Source: Phorcus lineatus (taxonomy: Eukaryota; Mollusca; Gastropoda; Trochida; Trochidae). From it: a stretch of 64,000 nucleotides of DNA. Location: positions 48,935,402-48,999,401 of the forward strand of contig OV121086.1 in NCBI GenBank assembly GCA_921293015.1. The letters are read 5' to 3'. Shown in pieces: positions 5,141 through 59,584 of the stretch. Both the position numbers and the translations under genes were made by a program. Below the pieces are notes generated by a model. The model had not been told where the DNA came from. It worked only from the letters and a program-made list of their open reading frames with translations, and ran no database searches. How positions within the stretch are numbered: position 1 is the stretch's first letter; every line of letters starts with the position of its first letter.

Positions 5141-8100
5141 TGTACATCTATGAAGACCATGGATTCTACTATCCACCCCCGCCAGGTAACCGTGGTAACA
5201 GTGGCATGGTGGTGAATTAGTCTAGTCAGTGTAAACCCTCCCTCACACGTGTGTTACATCACACAGTCATCACTTCCATATACATTCACCACTTGGTTAA
5301 AGCATATCACTCATCACATGTATCATACAAATGGTGTGTAAGTCAGTGATAAAAGATTTTAGTGTGTATCACCATTTTCATAGATATTATAACAGTTAGT
5401 TAGCACAAGTTTGTCATTGGGCCTTTAAGGGAAGTTATGATTTTTATCATGGAATAAAGTATCACTAATTAGACTGGTGTATTTGTTTGTTTCATTACAC
5501 TATCTTCAAATATACACACAAGGAAATAGCTTTCTTTCGTCTCTTTCTCATCATCACATGGATCTATCATCACACATCCATCACGCTTCCATCTGAATAC
5601 AAATCAACAAAGTTTTCAAAAGGTCTCACTCATTACATGTAATCACACAGCTGTCTCTTGTAGTGATCCCGCCAGGGGCTCAGCAACTTTATCTGCAGTA
5701 GAGAACTGTTTTACATGCAGTCAGGTTTTGGTGCAATGCTACACTAATCTCAGTGCAGTACCACCCATGGTTAGCTAGTTCCAACCGATGCTTGCATCTT
5801 TCACCGCAATGCATAGCCACAATGGTGTTGCAGGCTTTCTCCCTGCAATAATACTAGCAGCCGCGATATAAATGAAATACTCTTGAAAGCGACGTTAAAC
5901 CCCAAATCACCTCACCCCACCTCACCTCTTGCAGTGTCGCTCAGCACATAGGTTTACAAATAACCATCACACAAACATCACATTACATTCCTCAGGTTTT
6001 AACTTGTCTTGCTCATGTCATGCATGCCCTGTTCACAGTCATGGTGTATGATTGACAACTGTTGCATGTGACTGTGTTATCCTGTGTCAGTCATTACAGG
6101 ACGTACTCTTATTCATCACATTCATCACATACACAGCTTTAGCTCAGTTATATAAGCATATGATCATAAGTAGAGAGAACTATCACAGACCAATAGAATC
6201 AAGAATATCACACCTTCAAACCTTCGTGGTAAATAAGAATCAAGAATATCACACCTCCAGACCTTCATGGTAAATAAGAATCAAGAATATCACACCTCCA
6301 AACCTTCATGGTAAATAAGAATCAAGAATATCACACCTCCAAACCTTCATGGTAAATAAGAATCAAGAATATCACACCTCCAGACCTTCATGGTAAATAA
6401 GAATCAAGAATATCACACCTCCAGACCTTCATGGTAAATAAGAATCAAGAATATCACACCTCCAAACCTTCATGATATATAAGAATCAAGAGTATCACAC
6501 CTCCAGACCTTCATGGTAAATAAGAATCAAGAATATCACACCTCCAGACCTTCATGGTAAATAAGAATCAAGAATATCACACCTCCAAACCTTCATGGTA
6601 AATAAGAATCAAGAATATCACACCTCCAGACCTTCATGGTAAATAAGAATCAAGAATATCACACCTCCAGACCTTCATGGTAAATAAGAATCAAGAATAT
6701 CACACCTCCAGACCTTCATGGTAAATAAGAATCAAGAATATCACACCTCCAAACCTTCATGGTAAATAAGAATCAAGAATATCACACCTCCAGACCTTCA
6801 TGGTAAATAAGAATCAAGAATATCACACCTCCAGACCTTCATGGTAAATAAGAATCAAGAATATCACACCTCCAGACCTTCATGGTAAATAAGAATCAAG
6901 AATATCACACCTCCAAACCTTCATGATATATAAGAATCAAGAGTATCACACCTCCAAACCTTCATGATATATAAGAATACACATGGTAAATCATCACTTA
7001 AGAAAAATAATAAAGTAGTTTGTGGAACAGGTATTATTTAGTGATGAAGGTGTTCGTGTCTAAAGACAATGTTTGCAACTGTTAAACCGACAATTCTTCA
7101 ATGGCATGTAGAAGTTGATGAAGTGATACAAGGAGATGTTATGTATGAAGATTTGTATGTAGACAGTCAGCTGGGTTGCCAACCTCTGTATATGAAATCA
7201 TCATGTAAGAATGTATGAATTTGTTCCACATATTAACTTAGTTAACCTGTTATGATATAGTAGTACCAGGAAGCACCACAGTCTCATAATATACTCCTAA
7301 TGATGACAATGCAATTCATAGCTTTAGCGTCATTGTGAAATTCGATGCTGAGAGTGAAACCCAAGTCAGACAATAGTTACAGATTGCATTTCATTATACT
7401 ATCACTGTCAGGCTTTGTCTCTCACTGTCTCTTACTTGTTAGTGATAGGGGAAAACATTAACGTGAATTTGCAGTCTCATTTTGCCAGATATTTTATTGG
7501 AATAATGATGATAAACTACTGATATTTTATTGGAATAATGATGATAAACTACTAGATATTTTATTGGAATAATGATGATAAACTACTGATATTTTATTAG
7601 AATATTGATGACAAACTACTGTAGTAGTTTTGAGGTCACTAATTAATGGTATACTGTTACATTTCTTAGCAAAACTATGAAAGAGAGAACGGAAGTATGG
7701 GATATTGGATTCAGTTGCATTCATTGATAAAAATATCTGTCATTTAGATGATGAACACCTGTCACATTGTTTTATTTGGGATATGGGTGTATAAGTGACT
7801 ATGTTTTATTAATGGGAAAGGGAAATAAGATATATTCTTAAAGGGGAACAGAGTATGTTGTTGGGGTCAAATAAATCAAACTATATAAATGGTGCTATTT
7901 CATTGACAAGTAGTGGTCGTTTCTGAAACTTAGCATTGCATTGTTTATCAGTTAGCATAGTGACAATAAACATGTCGAGCTTTATGACCGGACAATGTAG
8001 CACGCTGATAACTCAACTTAAATTAGAAAACTTATTCATAGCATACACAAAGAGAAATATAATTTGGTATCGCTTAGTAGGTCAATTAGCTAATATACAT

Positions 8101-33800: not shown

Positions 33801-36800
33801 GCTCGTTTTAAGACTAGTAATGCACCTCATGTTGAGTGCACTGAAGCGGTACCTTTTCATATTTTCAACTTTCTGTAAATGTTTTTTTGTTTCCATATTT
33901 CCATGTCCAATTTGGATTCTGTACATGTAAGCTTTGTTTCCGATGTAAACTCATCCGGAACTGCTCATCTAATTGTTCTGAAAATCAATCCAAAGGTTTT
34001 AAATTTTAATTCTATATATAAAATGCAATTTATTTAGGTGCCACATTTCCTCAAATAATGTTGCTTTGTTTATACCATAACCTGCTATACCAAATGTATC
34101 AATGTACGGTTGAGTCGAAGCATAGTCTACAATAACCTCAGTACACGAGAGAGAAGCATTGCCAAGTAAGGTCATATTGTACATTTGTATCTGCAACACG
34201 CTTGGCAAACACACAAGTTAAATCTACTGCATCATGGAAATCAAAGATAAACATGTAATAGCTTTTATCTAATTCGTGATCGAAATTCAATACCCGCTTT
34301 TATTGAATCTTCGTGCGAAAATTTCAGGTGGTACCAAATTCAAAGGTTATCGAATTTGTATTAAAAAATCTCATAAACCAAAATCGTAAAATACTAGTGT
34401 TAACGATAAATATAGCAGTTAACAACGAGATTTGACATGATATGCAAATAAACCTGAAATATCAAATTACAAAATATGCTACAGATTATTTGATGTTTTA
34501 TAATTGTTTCATAAACATATTTGATGATTTAGATGTGATCAATTTTGTATTTGAAAAGATAACATTTTTACGACAAGAATAATAAAACTCACTTTATTCT
34601 TAAAAACTCTTAAAATCTTTTTTGTAGAAACCAAAAACAAATGATTTAATGATTTCAATCACAAATGGATCGATCTGACCCCAGCAAGAATATGATTAAA
34701 GACAATATATGTCACACATCTTGTGTCAATAATTTACTTGTTTATACCAAAGACGTATAATGTGTAAAATCCTTTGTTTATATTTTTTACAAGTGCGTAT
34801 ATAGGCATTCTGCCCTGAATGATTTGTAACCTTGGTAACCAATAAACAAAATCAACATTTCGCACAAAGAAAACAAGGCTTTCTGGATAACAACTTCTTT
34901 ATTGTTAAATCAACGACGTAGGAGTGAATGCTTACTCCTTCAGCTGGTGGGATGTAGGGAATATGGGATTGTGTACATATATACCATAGCAAGGAAACAT
35001 GAAATAAACATGGGGAATAACACTTCTAAATGCCTTTCAAAGAGATTTAGCATAACACATGGTCAAATTTGATGTGGCTTTTATTTATCATATTTGTACA
35101 AAATCACCTGTAATATGTATCGCTTTTAGCATACTTCAGTATGGATATATGCGCACTAGAAATTCCTATAATTGATTATGAAATGGTCTCTCACTCTATT
35201 AAGCAAATAGAATTTAAGGAAATTGACAATGCGATACGTTGCTTTTCTAGCATTATGTTCATAAGCAACAAACCCTACTTATTATAAATTTAGCACATGT
35301 TTCATTCGGAAACATATTTACTTGACTAGAAGACTGATTTTCTCAACTTTAGACAATGTCGTTTATCAAGCTGTCCATTGAAACCGTGTTTCGGAACCGA
35401 TTACGGCCTCAAAGTTAACAGAGTGCCTTCATTATGTTTACGGTACTATACTAAGTAAAACACACTGTTCTCACATCAGTCTCAGACCGTTAGACCACGG
35501 GCATGCTTTGGAGCATTGGTTTTGGTGCACCTTATGAATAAGCCATATTATCGTAAGGCTCAGTTTTCTTTCTCTTTATCTTTTGTTGGATATTCCCAAA
35601 GGCCTGCTTTCACAAAGCAACCTTAAGGTTAACCTTAACTTCCCGTCTCTGCACTCATCTTACCTTAAATACTTACACTCAGATTAGTGTTTGTGAAAAG
35701 AGGTTCAGGGAGGTAAGAGCTCAAAAGAGTGATATTTCAGTCTCAAACATTTCATCCTTTGGAATCTTGGTGTGTGTGCAAATTATAAAAATGATCTATG
35801 AACATTACATTGATTCCTCTTACTTTTCTCCAGCAACTTTCGCAATGGGCAACCCGAACGTGGAGGCGAACATGGTGGCGAAGATGGAGGAGAAGACGGA
35901 GAAGTTGAAACAGATGGTGCACTTCCTGCAGGAGAAGATGAGACAATCGCAGGTCAGTAGGTCACCTGGACGGAGGTATGGTCCAGATGATAATGATACA
36001 GAGTAATAAGAAATTATCTTATTATATGGACAATGTCTTTAGGATATGGTCGATGATATCATGAAATGGGCACCATAAAATGATATCGAAAATGATAAAA
36101 TGATATGGACATTTTTAAACGATATGAAAAAGATATTTAGAAAATGATATAGATATTTAGAAAATGATATAGATATTTAGAAAATGATATAGATATTTAG
36201 AACATATTTTAGACAATGCCATGATGATATGGCAATGGTTAACAGATACAGACCACTAATAGTGCCAACAATTACCTGATAAAAGTAATGATATAATCGT
36301 ATTGGAAAAGATAAATATAATTGATAATGATTGACTTAAACAGAACATTTTGATTGATTAAATTGGACAACTAGATAAATGAGAGCGCACATTCGGTAAA
36401 TATAAAACAAGAATGAGAAGTGCAGCCATTCAACGGCACCGATTATGAAAAGCATTGCTACGGCACTACCAAACATTATTCATTAGTCTTACGATAAATC
36501 ATTTGTAAAAGTGTATATATTCTGACCATACATATATTTTATCATTATAAAGAGGTAAAATTAGTCAATTTTTATGTCAATTTCCTCAAAACAAAATGGC
36601 GAACTATAAATGCCGATAGGACTGACTCTTTAATCTAATGCTGCATCATGCGGTATGATATGTTATGTCGGAACGACCAGGTGTTAAATGATATGAAGTA
36701 ACCCCTTGAAGTATTTACCTTTTGTTCTTGACAAAACTATACAATGCTAATTGTAATGCTGTAAACACGATATTGTTCTAACACATCGCCAAGCTGATTC

Positions 36801-43575: not shown

Positions 43576-46500
43576 ATGGCTTCTGGAGTGCGAAAAGTGG
43601 TGATTGCAATGGATGGCAGTGAACATGCTGACTATGCCTTTGATTGTAAGTATGTTTGTACAGGTTAATTGTGATGAATTGTGTGTCAGAGGTCGTGTTC
43701 AACACCGAATACCTGTCGTTCTTACCTGACAGAGAGGATAACTATGATAGAGAAGTTTAATATAGGATTGAATTTTCTTAAAAGTTGTATTCATGTAAAA
43801 ATGTATCAATAGTTAGGAAAAAGTCAGATGATAAATTTGGTAATGTCGGAAATTGTCGGAAATCGTTATTTACCTAAAGTTAACAAAAGGTAAGTTAAAG
43901 ATAATCCATTTCTGGCTCAACAATCATTGTATAGTGTCGTGTTCGGTCTGAACCGTGAAACATAGATGATTTCAGATTTTGAGCATTGATTTGTAACTTC
44001 AACAACGGGATAATGTCAATACATTCTCATACCAGGAAATATATAGGTAATATAAGTAAATATAGCTCGATGTTTCATGAGAACAAGAAATACATTTGTT
44101 TCAACACACAAATGTATTCATCCTTCGCTCAGTGATGTGTTAGATGTATGATCTATAGTCTAGATTTCGATGTAAATTAGACCTTTATCAAAACCCAGTT
44201 TCATGATAAGGTAGCGTTAGAATTTTAGCATTCAACATATGGTACCTACAGTGACTGATATTATATAGCATTTGTCTTTTGAGTATAGACGACTTAGTTT
44301 TACGAGTTTGCAGTAAGAAGATATAACTTTTCTTTAAGAATCTGTCGTGAATGATAAAAACAAGGTTGAGAAAAGCAAAATGGCGACCCTTTGCTAACGA
44401 TGTTCCAAAACGGGTTGCAGGGTACGTGCAGCAACTACGGAAGGACGGGGATTACGTGATCCTTGTGCACAGCCCAGAATATCACTCCATAGCTCAGTCA
44501 CGTGAGTATTTACATCAAACATGACAGAGAGACTCAGAGACAGATAGATTTTTAGTGTCTTACGACATATAACCATTGAAATTTTATAAAATATTATCTT
44601 TGTAAATAAAACACATGTGCCCCTGTATACGAGTTATTAGAGATTTGTATATAAATATTTAGTACTTTTGCATAAAAAAGGGCATTAAACAAAATAATAT
44701 GTTATATATCATAAAAAAACAAGAAGGTAAAAGGTATCACTCAAAGATTTAACACGGAAGAAAAAAGGGGTGGGGAAAGAAGACCACATTTGGTGGATTA
44801 AGTAGATGTGTACAGAATATGACGGCGTATAATAGGGTTTAATGTAACAGGTCTTGGCAGTTTCGAACAAAAAGTTGCTATAACTTGATATTGCTGAGAA
44901 CCCGGCATTCTCTGGCAAAGAACTTCCTATAACGACACGGGTTCTTTAAAAATCATGAAGTAAAAATAACTTAAAGGCACTAACGCACACTTACTTTATG
45001 TAAATAAATATAGTGCACGGATACTGCGTATGTCTCAATATTATCAAGCATCAAGTAATCTACAACATAGGTGAGTTGGAAAACATGAAATTATTCAGAT
45101 AATATTTCTAACAGCAACGTTGCATTTATTCTGCATGAATAACGATATCTGCAATATTCTAATTTTGCTTACAGTTTGAAAACCCAAAAAGGGAACTGCC
45201 ATGGTGAACCCAACAACAATGGTATTATCGTGTACACGAATTTGGCAAAGTTACAGATTTTTTCTATAAGGGATTTAGATATATCCTTCTGTTTCAGTGG
45301 TTTCAATAATAGATATTTTGTCCAATAGCTACTTCTGGCCGTCTTAACTTTGTCTTTGAGTACAAGTCAACTGTAAAAAATAATGATTATTTCATTGCAT
45401 CGATAGAAAGCTAGATTGAGTGCCTATACCCTTTGCCAAATTGAGGGCAGAATGCGTGCTAAAGTGCCTTTAAATCTGGCATGTTGATTTTCAAGGTACT
45501 TGAAATCCAATCCGTAAAACGTAAATCTCTTAACATAAGTATTTATTACTGTTAAAAACTTTCAAAAGCCATTATTTTTATATAGTCATTGAAACAAAGT
45601 ATGCTATTCTAAAAAAGAAACAAACATGTTTGATATTGCGTTCTCGAGTTACCTTTAAATTTAGTTCTTTGTCCTCACCTGTAAACCTGACCAAATCCTG
45701 GAAATGTATTCATTATTTGTGAAAAATACCTTCAAAGGAATCTGACCCGCCGATGACCTCATTTATCTTCAAACTCGGCCAACTTGCATGCCCATCAGCC
45801 TTGCGTTTAGACGTTAGAGCGACAAGTTAAACTCTTGATAAAATCAAAATGTTTGATATTTAAGATAATTCCGTATAATTACTAGAGAGTGACATCCAAA
45901 TAATCTGACTTGAGTGTTAACAGAACAATTATCAATGTCATATTTATTGTCATTAATAGTCCTGCTAAAAAGTTTCTATTCTTTTTCTCATATTCATTCT
46001 TTTTACAGGAACCAGGTTTTGGTTTTCAATTCTAACCATTAATCGTAATATTGTCATTAAACCACTCTTGTTCCTTATCATACATTGCTGTACTGGAAAT
46101 GTGTTTTAGAAATACATGCGATTGGTGATAGTGCCTGACCAAATATCAGAATGGTAATAGTAAATAAAAGACGAGCCCATTGCTGGATTCGAACCTACAC
46201 CTTCAGGGAACGGGTTGTATCCAACAGTTCATGGATCATCTTACTTAATATCTCATCCCATTTGTTTCCCCTGTTTGTTAAACAACTACATTCGCACATT
46301 CATCATTCTGCAAGCCCCGTTATTTTGTAATGCAGCTACATTTGGGATGGGCGAGCTCACCGACGAGTCTGAGGTTATGCAGGAACTGGAACAGGAGTCC
46401 AGGAGAATATCGGGGCTCATCACCCGTCTCCAGGACAAACTCAAGTCTCTCCAGGTGAGTCTCTATCTGATATGTAAGTCCGGGAGAATATCAGGGCTCA

Positions 46501-47953
46501 TCACCCGTCTCCAGGACAAACTCATGTCTCTCCATGTGGGTATGTATCTGCTATATAAGTCCATGATAACATCAGGGCTCATTGACCGTCTCCAGGACAA
46601 ACTCAAGTCTCTCAAGGTGGGTCTGTATCTGATATATAAGTCCAGGAGAATATCGGGGCTCGTCACCCGTCTCCAGGACAAACTCAAGTCTTTCCAGGTG
46701 AGTTTCTAACCCTAAACCCTAAAACTCAAGTCTCTCATGGTCGGTCTATGTCTGTATAATATGGCAACATTCATTCTCCTGGTTAACTCTAGTCTCCTGG
46801 GGTCGGTTGGTGCAACCTAATTTGTAACCATTGGCCAGGAACAGTGAGGTCTTACATTGATTTGAGCAGTTATTTCGTTTAAAAATGATGATGTCCTTTC
46901 TTAGATACAATCATATTCGGTTGTAGCCAAGCGTGTATCTCATCATGTGACATTGATTAACGCTTAGATTCCAACTTGCCATGCATTTATCAGATTTCGA
47001 ATTGCAAACTAATTATCGTTTCAATTCATGTACACCATTTTGATTGATGAGAATTGCAATAGAGGCTGAAACGTTAATGACGCCATAGCAGACGTTACAC
47101 TGGGGAGGTGGTTTTGTCAATGTGAATTGTGAATTTTACAATACAGCTGCACCAATGAAATAAAACAATATATGATGAAACTGAATGTGATGTTATACAT
47201 ATGACAGTGCTACAGACACTGTTAAAGGGCCACAGAGTATGTTGTTGGAGTCAAATATGTCAAACTTCATAAAAAGTTTTATCTTATCGAGAAGAGTTGT
47301 TTTGTTCTATAAATCAGCATCTAACTGCTTAAAAATTCAGTAAAGTGTCAATAAATAGGTTAAAGTCGTGATTTGTGATCGAAAACCGGACAATGGCGAG
47401 CGTCAATGAATCAAACGTAATATGAAACTGATTTACAGAAGACACAAAGGAAAATATTGATTGGTATTGTTAAATTGGTCATTTAACTAACATATATTTA
47501 AATTGGAAGCAGAATTCGACTTCCTGACATTTAAATGGTAATTCTTTTTATAAATCTTTGAAAACAAGAAAATATCATAGTTTAGGTTTTTAAGCGATAA
47601 AAATGCAGCTTTAGAGGGGCGATTTGAACATAACTTAGCACTTATAGTTATACTGGCTCTTATTTCAGCCACAGAAAAAATCATCAAACATACTCAGTGT
47701 CACTTTAAAAACATTGAGTATAAATAAATTTTGTTGCTTCCAGCTTGCTGGTGAGGTGAGGAAGGAGGTGGGAGTACCGGGGCACTGCATCGTGAAGGTG
47801 GCGGATGAAGTGAATGCCAGTTTTATCATAGCCGGAACACGAGGCATGGGAACTCTACGTCGTACACTCCTGGGCAGCGTCAGTGACTACATCATGCATC
47901 ACAGCCACGTGCCGGTTGTTGTGTGTCGTCACAAGGAGCTTCATAGAAAATAG
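43576..47953 (+). CDS. Universal stress protein (UspA fold), USP gene 3
   Basis: Exons: 43576-43645, 44421-44501, 46336-46454, 47744-47953 (phases 1, 1, 0), giving 159 residues for the basic form. Exon 1 starts MASGVRKVVIAMDGSEHADY in a good Kozak context (AACCATGG). Exon 2 opens WYVQQLRKDGDYVILVHSPE. Exon 3 opens PTFGMGELTDES and ends in the helix RISGLITRLQDKLKSLQ. Exon 4 has SFIIAGTRGMGTLRRTLLGS then DYIMHHSHVPVVVCR. The nucleotide motif is intact (Gly121, Gly124, Gly134, Ser135). The last 18 codons of exon 3 plus 27 bases of intron are repeated four times in frame, giving four possible donors (46455, 46536, 46617, 46698), so longer isoforms (+27, +54 or +81 residues) are possible. TTAA MITEs sit in introns 2 and 3. 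Confidence 0.92.
44971..45473 (+). mobile_element. TTAA-flanked MITE, family C copy 1
   Basis: TTAA at 44971-44974 and 45470-45473 flanks a 495-bp element. The left end AAGGCACTAACGCAC and the inverted right end AAGGCACTTTAGCACGC form the TIRs. No coding sequence. It lies in intron 2 of USP gene 3; a partial inverted relative is at 29228. Confidence 0.75.
46401..46709 (+). repeat. 81-bp in-frame tandem repeat spanning a splice donor
   Basis: Four units start at 46401, 46482, 46563 and 46644, an exact 81-bp (27-codon) period. Each has 54 bases of exon 3 (RRISGLITRLQDKLKSLQ type) followed by 27 bases of intron starting GTGAGT or GTGGGT. Units differ by roughly nine to fifteen bases, yet none of the first three contains an in-frame stop; the frame closes 12 nt into the fourth donor. 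Donors 1 and 4 are CAG|GTGAGT; donors 2 and 3 are weaker (CAT|GTGGGT, AAG|GTGGGT). Confidence 0.95.
47222..47708 (+). mobile_element. TTAA-flanked MITE, family A copy 2
   Basis: TTAA at 47222-47225 and 47705-47708 flanks a 479-bp element whose ends (AAGGGCCACAGAGTATGTTG; inverted AAGTGACACTGAGTATG) match the copy at 7842-8264. Its right end lies about 35 bp before exon 4 of USP gene 3. A core at 47372-47422 is shared, inverted, with the family B element at 51299-51767. Confidence 0.8.
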
Positions 47954-48924: not shown

Positions 48925-49000
48925 GTCTTGACCGGGATTCGAACCCTGGTTTTTGGCACGAAGAAGCAGCATGCTAGTCACTACACGACTGTGCTCCACT
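48925..49000 (-). repeat. tRNA-like fossil, minus strand
   Basis: On the minus strand, GTGTAGTGACTAGCATGCTG (box A-like) and GGGTTCGAATCCCGG (box B with a paired T stem) are spaced as in a tRNA. The acceptor-stem bases do not pair, so it is not a functional tRNA gene; probably a SINE head. Confidence 0.55.
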
Positions 49001-53634: not shown

Positions 53635-56600
53635 ATGGCGAGACGCAAGATCGTGATCGCTATGGATGGGAGCGAGTACTCTAACTTCGCCTTCAAGTGT
53701 AAGTATGTTTGAGTTACCTTTCTTGTCATATGTTTTACCTGTTGTTATATATGGCAATGTTCTTTTCATTTTAAAGTTTATTATTAATTTTAGCATTATT
53801 GTCATCATTAATAATACCTTATACATGCTTATTCAATCCAGATGACATCTGTGATACCTATAAATGTCATTTTATTCAACTCACAACATTGTTTCGGGTT
53901 TTTATTTCATGTGTATTTAAACTCAATGAGTAGTAGACTGTGTGCAAAATCCTTTGATTGTATTAAATGATTGCTAGTTAATCATTCCTTTTTAAGATGG
54001 GCCTATTATTCTATCAATATAACATCAAATATATTTCTTTCCTCTCATTATTCCTTATATCAACTATCAGAAAAAATAGAAAAATTAGATAAATATTTCT
54101 AAAAAAAAAAAAAAAGAAAAAAAAAACTATCAGAAAAAATAATAATACTGATAGATTTTCTTTCCATATTCCAAAATGAAACGAAGATATGTTACGTTGT
54201 AATATGCTTATGTTAAAAAACAATCATACAAAGGATTTGCTTTTTTGAGGCAATGGAACTTGAATACATTATTTCGTTGATCAGCTTATTCATAAGGACC
54301 AAGAGACCTCATGAATGATTTATAACTGTCAAAAGTAAATTGAATCAAAGTTGAATCAAGAATTGAAACATTTAGCAAGATAAGCATTATCTCGTATATG
54401 TTCCATCCAGCTCTTCCTGTTGCTAGGCGACAATATCAACAATGTACTGTTAACATTAAACAAAGACTCGAGATAGGAACCGCCTGTTACGTTCTAGCCT
54501 AACTTTTAGTCGTTAAAGTATTTTCTCACAGCAAACGGTATCCATTATCAATAAATGGCGATACTAGGTTATATTCTATAAAGATTCCTAAATCTGGAGG
54601 CAAACTTATATTTTCAGGACAAAAATTAAGGATATAATAACACTAAGCCATATGCATGATAGAAGGCCGTATACATATACACATGTCTTATTATATATAT
54701 TATATATGTTTATTTATGAATAGAGTGAAACTGTTTCTGAAGATTACTTCTAACTATTTGGTTAATATTTGTTATGTTTAGATCAATGGTCAACAAGATA
54801 GTATTAATTCAAGAATGCTGAAACAGTCTAGATATTGTCTAGAGAGAAACTTGACATAATTCATAGAAAAAAGGGTAAATGACAATGAGAATTCATTTAA
54901 TTCAAAATTTAGGGATAGACTTTGCATTGTTAAAGGATCTCACCGTCGAGATTATGGTTTATGAAAATAAACTTTGTTTCGATATTTGTCGCTGTATGCC
55001 ATCGTTGTATCTGAAAACTTTCAAAGCAACACGTTTCACATTCTCTCCTCACGCAGGAAAACATCAGTTCAGTTACATTAATTAGTGCAAAAAGAATGTA
55101 TGTCTCAAACGTATTGTCTTGAACACAATACAGCACACATTGAAGTATGCTGTTGAAATATCCTACGTGTATAGCCTAGTCGCACCGTGCCTTTAAAACA
55201 CAGCCCTGAGAAGGTTGACGATAGAGTAAGTCAAAATGATTAAAGAGACTATTAAACCCCTTTAGTAGGTCAAACACTGATCTCCAGATAAGAAAAGTTT
55301 TTCGCAAAACAATAAAGGGTATTCAGAAAGAGAAAAATTGAAATATCGTACGCCATATTAAACAAGAGTCATGATCGAAATGACTCAAATGTTGCATATT
55401 TTAATTGTTCAATAACCATACCTTAATACATTTCTTTATGTCTTAAGTATTTCGGAATCATATTCAGTTTAGTTTAGTTTCACACAGCGAAAAACTAGAC
55501 TGCGTTTTATAGGCTTCAGTATCTGTCTTGAAGCCGGACATGAATTGCTGGACCCAGCAATATTCCAGACTTGTTATTAAGAGGACAGACATATTGAAAC
55601 GGGCATCAAATAAATCAATAATGTAAAACTTTATGTAAGAGTTGATCAAAGTTTAGGGGTAATAAATCCAAGTGTATTCATGTCTATTTGTACTGGCATG
55701 TTGCCAATATTTACAGCAGATATTGCTCAAAGATAAACAAGTAATGCGATAGTAAACATGCGAGCTTTATTTAATGCATATAGGCAGCAAAATAAGGTCT
55801 TCGGATAAAAGATGAATTGACGAATGAAGTGACGAATGAAAAAAACATGTACATTACATGTATTTTGACAACACGTTATTATCGTTTATCAAATTTGATT
55901 GAAGTTGAAATGAACAATAAACTTCTGTGCGTCATTGTATTGTTAAATATCCTTTGACTGCTGTCCTACGGATGAATGTCTCTATCAACATCATGAAGTC
56001 TGTTTCACTTCTTGGAAATTGGAATGATGATAGTGAAGAGAAATACATGATAAATTCTTTATTCATGAGTAGAGGACTGTTCTACACGCAGTCAGGTTTG
56101 GGTGCAATGCAACACTGAATTTCAGTGCAGTACCACTCATTGTTTGCTAGTTCCAGCCGATGCTCGCAGGTTTCATCGCAATGCATAGCCACAGTGATGT
56201 TGCGGGCTTCTTCCCTCCAATAATACAAGCAGTTGCGATATAAATGAAATACTCTTGAAAGCGGCGTCAAAGCCCAAATCACCTCACCTCACCTTGGTAT
56301 CCTGTCAAAACGCAGAACTGCAAAACGCAGAATCCCAATTAGCAGAAATGAAAAGTTCATTGTCAGGCTGGTCACACCTATTCAATTAAGTAATGGACTG
56401 GTCCACTCTGACAGTGAGTAGAGCGACACAGTCAAATTAGCAGATCACTGAATCAACAGGTCAATGTTCAACAGTATGAACCTCCCGGTATATGTTTATA
56501 TGAAAATACTGAGTAGTAACACACTGTAACAATATATTCAGCACTCTATCAAAACATTGTTAAACAGTATAATCCTCCCAGGTACATGTGTTTATATGAA

Positions 56601-59395
56601 AATACTCTATCAAAACATTGTTTAGAGTATGAACCTCCCGGTATATGTTTATATGAAAATACTGAGTAGTAACACACTGTAACAATATATTCAGCACTCT
56701 ATCAAAACATTGTTAAACAGTATAATCCTCCCAGGTACATGTGTTTATATGAAAATACTCTATCAAAACATTGTTTAGAGTAAACAATTAAACTTTAATC
56801 TCATACTTCCATATATATAGGTGTTAGAAACATGGCATAGACATTCCAATTCCACAATGGCTGGGTTACGGAAAGTAGAATATGTGATGTCTCAGAAAGG
56901 TGCTCCACAAGTGTTACTTGACGGATACTTGTATGCTAAGAACAAGGATAAGGGGGACACTGTTTACTGGCGGTGTGTTAATAGGTCATGCAGTGGCAAG
57001 TGTACCACCGTCACAGACTTCGTGAAGATAACCCCAACGTCTACAGGTTCATTGAACTGATCAAGAACATTGAAAACGGAGAGAAGGCGAAGGTCATCCA
57101 GATCAACTTTGGAGCTGCTCCACCACCCAAGAAAGCAATCTACAAAGAGAAGGAGCAGCGCCTGTCTCGTCTGAAAGATCAGCTTCGCCGTGGTGAGAAG
57201 TCACCAATGCAGTTCCTGGATGCAGTCGGACCTCTCATGATGATGAAGATGTGAATGAAAGCACAGATTGAACAATGAACAATGATAAGCAATGTTGTAA
57301 ATTGTAAAATAATCAATATCCAAGATGATGAAAGAATCCAACAATGGAAACATATGATTAAAAAACATGCACAATACATGTTTACACAACAAATTGTATT
57401 TTTGTCTTCATTTCATTTCCTATCGGGCCGTTCCATTATATTATGAGGGTTCAGGTGTGTGCAACCAACCATAAATGTTGTTGTTTTAGCAGTTCTGCGT
57501 TTTGCAGTTCTGCGTTTGAAACCACATGACACTTCATTCAGGTTACCATGACGAATAGTTTTACATTGTACGTGCACACGCCGAATTCATACTTCTTATA
57601 TGTAGTAACATGATTATTGGTTACATTTCCTCTTTGTAAATATCAACATGAGTTTTCCTTTCTACCTGCTATTGACTACGTTTTACTAATTGCCCTACGC
57701 CAATTTCCTGTTTTCTAACACAAACCACATATTTCTACTTTTATATTGTCCCTTAGATATTCTTCAGATCTAGATTTGTTTTTCAAGAGGTTATGTTGTT
57801 GTCAAAAAAACATTAATCACAGCCTTGGTGTCTGTATAATTGTCAATAACTGAACCAAAAAGCATTAAATGATGTAAAGCATCTCAATAAAATAACACTA
57901 TTTGTAAAGTGTGATATATATGACGCCAACAAGACACTTAGTGTCACTTCAATCCAATAGAATAGGGCTGTGAAGTTGTTAATTTAATAGAGAGGCTGCG
58001 GTAGGTAACCCTTCTCCTCCTGGGAGACCAGGTACCAGGTGACATGCTCCTTTTAGATTTTATAATATATCGATGATAAATATGTATAAAATGCAGAATT
58101 AATCCCAATATGAGGACATTGCTATTTTTCAGGGTATCTACAGTACATACATCAAACTCACGATGACGTTGTTTTAGTTCACTGCCCGGAATACAACTCG
58201 CTGTTCCATCACGGTAGGTGAGATTAGACGCTGTGTGGAGGTTTGAAAGAACCGCAGAGGCAAAGTATGTTTCAATCTACTACAACTGGGTTCCTTTTTC
58301 TAAACTAGTTCTGCTTGTAATCAGCGATAAGTCTGTTTGCAATCATAGCTCACCTTTAAGCGGATGAGTTTGGGGTTAAAAATAGATAGAACCACTTTCT
58401 TAATTGAATTTTTAAGACATGTGACGAAACTTCATCACTTTTCCCAGCTTCGGTTGTGTCTTTACAAATTAGTTTCCGTAGGTTTAGCCAAAAATTGAAG
58501 CCACCTTTTCCTCGTTGTTACGTATACGAATATGATTATCCTGTATGAGGGTGGTAGATGATTTTCTGAAAAATGGAAACTTAATAAATATATGTCAATG
58601 TCATTATTGCATGTAAAGATAATAACTTGTTTTTGAGAAATGGTTGAGCTCAATCTCAATAAAATAAAATCTAGTATTGCTGCACTACGTTACGCAGATT
58701 ATAGGATCTACACGCGTAATGTATTGGAGCATTTAGATTTCATTCAAATGAGATTGGGTTAAGCTCTATTTCCTGACAGTAAGTCTGAGAAACACAAATA
58801 CACAAATGCGATAACTGAAATGTTTTTGATGAACATTGATATAATGACATATCTCTTATATATAAATCAATGAAATTGTATTTACCAAAATCAAAAAACG
58901 AGTTTCACCCCATGCTTTTTTCACTCGCAACATTCTTCCTTTTTACTATGAAAGAACCATTATCTATCAGTTTAACAAATACCCAGGTAACATTTCACAA
59001 ATTTTGAGTTATTGCATTTATAAAAATACTAATTTGTTTAGGGAAGTCAATATAACTTGTCGAAGCTTTAGTTATTCCACCGATACTTTCTTTATCATTC
59101 GGTTTCACGCTAAAACATATATATATATACATATACGCTCCCGCTCCACTTACAGGTAAGTAAATTTACTCTGAGACAGGATTCTTATTTATCTGTCTTT
59201 TAACAAAGCATTTGTTATAGTATTGTGAAGCTTAACACTTAAACTCTTTTAAAAAGAAAATTCAATGTGAGTGATGATGACGATGACGATGATGATGATT
59301 ATTATTATGATGATGATGTTGTTGATGATGTTGATGATGTTGATGATGATGATGATGATGATGAGTATGATGTTGTTGATGATGATGATGATGAA

Positions 59396-59427
<32 letters not shown>

Positions 59428-59449
59428 GGATGATGATGATGATGATGAA

Positions 59450-59482
<33 letters not shown>

Positions 59483-59545
59483 GAAGAAGAAGAAGAAGAA
59501 GAAGAAGAAGATGATGATGATGGTGATGATGATGATGATGATGAA

Positions 59546-59584
<39 letters not shown>

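Follow-up and report, generated by a model that had tools for sequence, protein, structure and literature searches.

The window considered here, a stretch of 64,000 nucleotides from the gastropod Phorcus lineatus (contig OV121086.1, positions 48,935,402 to 48,999,401 of the forward strand), contains part of a cluster of universal stress protein (USP) genes, one of which, gene 3, carries an 81-bp tandem repeat that includes the 3' end of its third exon together with the splice donor. A tblastn search of the window and its neighbourhood (170,599 bases) placed at least eight USP genes on the + strand, from 24030 to past the window end and up to C11:49065762. The exon-intron model of gene 3 is inferred and the splice sites of its paralogs were chosen by eye, from sequence alone, and the exons of gene 3 in this model are:

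43576..43645, + strand: exon 1 of USP gene 3 (inferred model), with a GT donor and a phase that fits exon 2; counterparts in seven other cluster genes
44421..44501, + strand: exon 2 of gene 3, with a CAG acceptor and a GTGAGT donor; counterparts in seven other genes
46336..46454, + strand: exon 3 of gene 3, closing at the probably ancestral donor 46455; six paralogs have their inferred exon 3 end at the corresponding place
47744..47953, + strand: exon 4 of gene 3, including the stop, with a CAG acceptor in phase 0

The exon 4 acceptor (47744) has the top score among 77 AGs, the site itself being part of the training set.

Tandem Repeats Finder (TRF) reports the array at 46396-46708 as 3.9 copies of an 81-bp unit, with 85% matches, 0% indels and a score of 472, and the repeat is far beyond chance. 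The first 54 bases of each unit are identical or similar to the end of exon 3, and intron-type bases follow (the fourth unit being shortened), which open with GTGAGT, GTGGGT, GTGGGT and GTGAGT in units 1 to 4, respectively. The 54-base exon part is thus repeated along with its donor, so that the array includes the 3' end of exon 3 as placed from the paralogs; AG/GT is present in units 1, 3 and 4, and CAT/GT in unit 2. The elements of the array and its surroundings are:

46396..46400, + strand: AGTCC at the left edge of unit 1, read directly; a second AGTCC stands at 46477-46481
46401..46481, + strand: unit 1, the last 54 exon bases and 27 intron bases, with donor 46455 CAG/GTGAGT (TRF, direct reading, donor matrix)
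46482..46562, + strand: unit 2, with donor 46536 CAT/GTGGGT (TRF, direct reading, donor matrix)
46563..46643, + strand: unit 3, with donor 46617 AAG/GTGGGT (TRF, direct reading, donor matrix)
46644..46708, + strand: unit 4, shortened by the filler with its whole exon part kept, and with donor 46698 CAG/GTGAGT, which is also acceptor-like (zero-length exon)
46710..46723, + strand: filler CCCTAAACCCTAAA separating unit 4 from the remnant of unit 5, the sole copy of this 14-mer in the window on either strand
46722..46758, + strand: fifth partial unit, decayed, with a donor remnant ATG/GTCGGT at 46740 (score 5.41)
about 46785..46807, + strand: possible sixth remnant, marginal

The original prediction, made from the same DNA, had described four 81-bp units that each copy the exon end and its donor, and TRF and direct reading bear this out, with the fourth unit shortened; the fifth unit, the marginal sixth, the AGTCC edges and an acceptor-like AG in each unit were absent from it. 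The AGTCC at both edges of unit 1 suggests a plausible microhomology for the first duplication. The possible neutral duplication had also been described as recent, which is only partly right, since the units differ pairwise by 5 to 20%. Unit 4 differs from unit 1 at 3 of 65 bases, and each of the three informative sites within the first 65 bases sets these two apart from units 2 and 3; on this comparison, unit 4 looks like a later copy of unit 1, or one that was kept for another reason. Beyond the filler, the fifth unit aligns with a score of 38, which is reached by none of 1000 first-order Markov controls (control maximum 28), and the sixth remnant stands out only when aligned with unit 5, where 7 of 1000 controls reach its score; with the unit consensus, 181 of 1000 do. 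Since the units past the filler are decayed, the array is, to judge from these remnants, eroding at its intron-side end. The filler is telomere-like and contains CCCTAAA; TTTAGGGTTTAGGG is absent from the window.

The paralogs provide the reference for where exon 3 ends. Seven of the cluster genes have all four exons located, and exon 3 of gene 8 was not found by tblastn in the window and its neighbourhood. Exon 3 was placed in six paralogs, and in all six its inferred end matches donor 1, in phase 0 to exon 4, and TRF finds no repeat across it, which makes donor 1 (46455) probably the ancestral donor; by the same comparison, the array is particular to gene 3 among the seven genes with a located exon 3. 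Gene 4 exceeds the window, with its exon 4 just outside the window end, and the call of its exon 3 combines a weak match (E 3.1) with its splice sites. Gene 5 was taken as a single gene by joining exons 1-2 near 73690-74586 with exons 3-4 near 89258-89686, and for genes 4 and 8 the choice of exon 2 donor is uncertain.

When 43576-43645, 44421-44501, the segment from 46336 to each possible exon end, and 47744-47953 are joined, the frame stays intact, with lengths of 159, 186, 213 and 240 residues, and the donors at 46455, 46536, 46617 and 46698 are all in phase 0 with exon 4 (47744), as had been predicted. Units 1 to 3 are stop-free, again as predicted, and the first in-frame stop lies at 46707-46709, past donor 4. 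When the observed changes are placed at random, units 2 to 4 stay stop-free with a probability of 0.46, and stop-free units are unremarkable. The joint chance of a readable frame, about 0.075, is the product of 1/3 for a period divisible by 3 (an assumed value), 0.49 for nine open intron codons and 0.46 for freedom from stops after the observed changes; the readable frame is not clearly beyond chance.

A dN/dS comparison shows that the units depart from their majority sequence by 19 distinct changes, of which 3 are synonymous and 16 nonsynonymous, and the P of this pattern is 0.29 at omega 1, 0.028 at omega 0.5 and 0.0014 at omega 0.3. Neutrality fits the unit changes and strong constraint does not, in agreement with the neutral duplication that the original prediction had offered as one possibility and which the decayed downstream units fit as well. 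The 3:16 changes, together with the stop-free probability, reject the idea that the frame is open because of strong coding constraint. The helical moment is 0.58 for units 1 and 4, 0.46 for unit 2 and 0.34 for unit 3, that of the paralog exon ends being 0.43 to 0.61 in five of six and 0.35 in gene 4, so that the amphipathic character proposed for the added residues stands for units 1 and 4 but is lower in units 2 and 3. With the 3:16 changes and this drop in helical moment, the added residues look like drifting sequence.

The donors were scored with a matrix built on 22 of the 24 expected donors of the eight genes, that of gene 3 exon 3 being deliberately excluded and that of gene 8 exon 3 not found. 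Donors 1 to 4 score 12.45, 9.75, 10.05 and 12.45, against a leave-one-out range of -0.8 to 12.0, and their pairing with the 5' end of U1 is computed as -12.2, -6.7, -9.9 and -12.2 kcal/mol, against -6.5 to -9.6 kcal/mol for eight inferred cluster donors. On these values all four donors could function, and because donor 4 equals donor 1 on both scales, leaky use of donor 4 is plausible and would be the most likely molecular consequence of the array. An additional donor-like site, TAT/GTAAGT, is present at 46474 in unit 1 only (score 5.71); its use would shift the frame.

The Pfam scan covered three of the four isoforms (159, 186 and 240 residues), and Usp (PF00582) matches them with 95.9, 90.8 and 89.7 bits, respectively, at a curated cut-off of 24, the domain of the 240-residue form being split into two stretches. 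By eye, GTRGMGTLRRTLLGS in the translation fits G-2X-G-9X-G-S/T, the USP nucleotide-binding motif. An alignment placed the exon 3/4 junction on MJ0577 (1mjh) at a point which we take to follow the long helix and precede the next strand, and an insert between the two could be tolerated. In matching the family profile, the host gene is like other members of PF00582; in the repeat at its exon 3 end, it is unlike its six same-cluster paralogs.

A DNA search of the genome with the array (958 Mb, 74 contigs; a search that passes over simple repeats and very common words) gave one match, its own locus, and a dispersed-repeat origin is not supported by this single match. When exon 3 plus unit 2 served as the query of a protein search, the matches were the array, split into two pieces, and a single weak hit (E 5.2) to exon 3 of a paralog. 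No inverted repeats of at least 14 bases occur in 46300-46900, and RNA structure as a regulator is without support (z -1.0; 16 of 100 shuffles fold equally well or better). ARAGORN, and Rfam at gathering thresholds, gave no matches in the window. At 46180-46200 and 48935-48950 lie GGATTCGAACC-type stretches, which we take to resemble the tRNA B box on the - strand; ARAGORN found no tRNA in the window, and 46140-46260 matches itself alone in the genome.

Other repeats are present elsewhere in the window and the cluster. Genes 2 and 4 have unrelated repeats at other places in exon 3 or intron 3, and TRF reports a 12-bp repeat of about three copies inside gene 2 exon 3, in the same variable helix region (35855-35901), a 153-bp tandem duplication with two copies and 100% matches in gene 4 intron 1 (56473-56782), a run of about 104 TGA units in gene 4 intron 2 (59272-59584) and a 41-bp minisatellite of 19 copies with 97% matches (6195-6978).

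Among known systems, the closest parallel appears to be human IFI6. Turri and colleagues reportedly described, in 1995, a minisatellite with multiple splice donors in this gene (6-16, G1P3). Its 12 bp units extend the protein in frame, and their copy number differs between individuals. The repeat described here looks like one of the same kind, in that it also holds an exon 3' end with its donor, has the donor sequence in more than one unit (four) and keeps the reading frame. In the available part of PMC4526556, the IFI6 repeat units serve as splice donors and three mRNA species are given; the IFI6 units are short and their donor use is reported in mRNA, whereas the units here measure 81 bp (54 exon bases and 27 intron bases) and carry predicted donors. 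Intron gain by tandem duplication of an AGGT-holding segment, with a new intron reported, is described in the portion of PMC4974935 consulted, together with a potato duplication that spans the intron 1/exon 2 boundary and fission yeast genes that hold multiple copies of a 24-bp segment. The segment here also contains AGGT (units 1, 3 and 4), and the potato case is likewise boundary-crossing; however, that case copied the acceptor side and the array copies the donor side. Mammalian alternative tandem 5' splice sites, as far as the excerpted text of PMC2423196 goes, also share one acceptor among several donors, but the featured donors overlap four bases apart and the copies here stand 81 bp apart. 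The USP genes of flatworms are mostly without introns according to the accessible section of PMC5793430, in contrast to the four-exon genes of this cluster. A literature search on exon-intron boundary tandem repeats with variable isoform length found none, which, given its narrow terms, says little.

A near-neutral, frame-preserving minisatellite across the exon 3 end, with donor 1 as the main donor and units 2 to 4 as passengers, is the reading that we consider reasonably probable. A tandem duplication between the two AGTCC stretches would have copied 81 bp across the exon 3/intron 3 junction, and the array would then have expanded to at least five units, three complete, a fourth with its exon part and donor, and a fifth now a remnant. 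To judge from the paralogs, donor 1 is probably still the main donor, and units 2 to 4 would drift nearly neutrally as passengers, persisting because the period is divisible by 3 and all the donors are in phase. If a downstream donor were used now and then, donor 4 being the likeliest, the outcome would be a readable protein with an insert before the third strand of the fold and no frameshift. This reading is preferred because of the AGTCC edges, the paralog exon ends at donor 1, the 3:16 changes and the decayed downstream units; because of the stop-free probability of 0.46, the lower helical moment of units 2 and 3 and the equality of donors 4 and 1; and because the four frames keep phase and all three scanned isoforms match Pfam Usp. 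Several observations weigh against it: the four unit donors remain good, with the top four scores among the 89 GTs of exon 3 and intron 3; donors 2 and 3 (9.75 and 10.05) lie within the leave-one-out range of the 22 inferred cluster donors; the 19 changes leave weak constraint or positive selection compatible with the test; the close likeness of unit 4 to unit 1 (3 of 65) could mean constraint as well as recent copying; and the joint chance of a readable frame, about 0.075, is not large.

One alternative, which we regard as unlikely, is that donor 4 took over, so that the intron-proximal strong donor is constitutive and the protein normally has 240 residues. Donors 4 and 1 are identical over the nine donor bases and donor 4 is closest to the acceptor; work by Eperon from 1993 is reported to indicate that, with U1 bound at several strong 5' splice sites, splicing tends to use the intron-proximal site, a tendency that would favour this alternative. 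In the part of the DOK7 study at hand (PMC5585400), SRSF1 promotes intron-proximal use, which points the same way. On the other hand, 81 residues without a sign of constraint would then enter every protein copy, and the substitutions reject strong constraint. Rather unlikely, too, is the length-variable isoform switch offered as one possibility by the original prediction, in which regulated use of two or more donors would give stress proteins of 159 to 240 residues. It has in its favour four in-phase donors with credible scores, an insertion point that on the 1mjh alignment presumably lies past the long helix and short of the following strand, a place that may tolerate an insert, continued Pfam Usp matches of the 186 and 240 forms (90.8 and 89.7 bits against 95.9) and the precedent of IFI6, whose isoforms come from repeat donors in the available part of PMC4526556. 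However, the units show no sign of coding constraint, most amphipathicity is gone from unit 3, the 240-residue form has its Pfam domain in two stretches, and the array is missing from six paralogs. The original prediction stands in its anatomy, phases, coordinates and lengths, whereas the switch has nothing in support beyond donor scores and open frames, and recency and amphipathicity hold in part. An assembly artefact is extremely unlikely: tandem repeats can be miscopied during assembly, but the units diverge by 5 to 20%, one downstream unit is decayed, and the locus is single in the 958 Mb, 74-contig assembly.

The remaining alternative concerns acceptor-like sites within the units:

46414..46433, + strand: acceptor-like stretch GGCTCATCACCCGTCTCCAG of unit 1, with counterparts ending just before 46515, 46596 and 46677

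In each unit, CGTCTCCAG ends 21 nt before the unit donor, every one in frame 0, and the acceptors of units 1 to 4 score 7.59, 7.59, 7.31 and 5.29; the AG before 46698 scores 8.13, with a strong donor immediately after it. The acceptor matrix was built on 18 of 24 local acceptors (the six exon 3 acceptors left out), with a leave-one-out range of 1.6 to 12.0. Nascent 21-nt, phase 0 microexons, recursive splicing or intron birth, with 46698 CAG/GTGAGT as a zero-length exon, would be in keeping with these scores, all of which fall inside that range, with the frame 0 position of the sites, with a CTCAT that resembles a branch site and lies at offset 15 of units 1 to 3, and with the intron gain from AGGT-holding tandem copies documented in the consulted portion of PMC4974935. 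Nevertheless, this alternative is very doubtful, as the same acceptor-like site also sits at 46434, within the normal exon 3; AGs of the intron beyond the array reach similar scores (47669, 7.37; 47216, 6.7; 46927, 6.49), so that the score is unspecific; the zero-length site has a score of just 1.5 in unit 3 and lacks its AG in unit 2; CTCAT is missing from unit 4; and the matrix was built on just 18 sites. It is hardly likely that the array forms a ready-made splicing module, in which each unit would supply a 21-nt microexon with its donor and an in-phase acceptor, and the end of unit 4 a recursive splice site; if it did, a family of isoforms that preserve the frame would be determined by the number of repeat copies, and the array could give rise to new introns next to an existing one, on its donor side.

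For the near-neutral minisatellite, the general picture would be unchanged unless regulated donor use were seen in RNA. The locus provides a natural test of how the spliceosome selects from near-identical donors that lie 81 nt apart and have a single acceptor in common. It is also a test of what allows repeats across exon-intron boundaries to survive, each donor here keeping the frame. The array may represent an early stage toward alternative exons or new introns.

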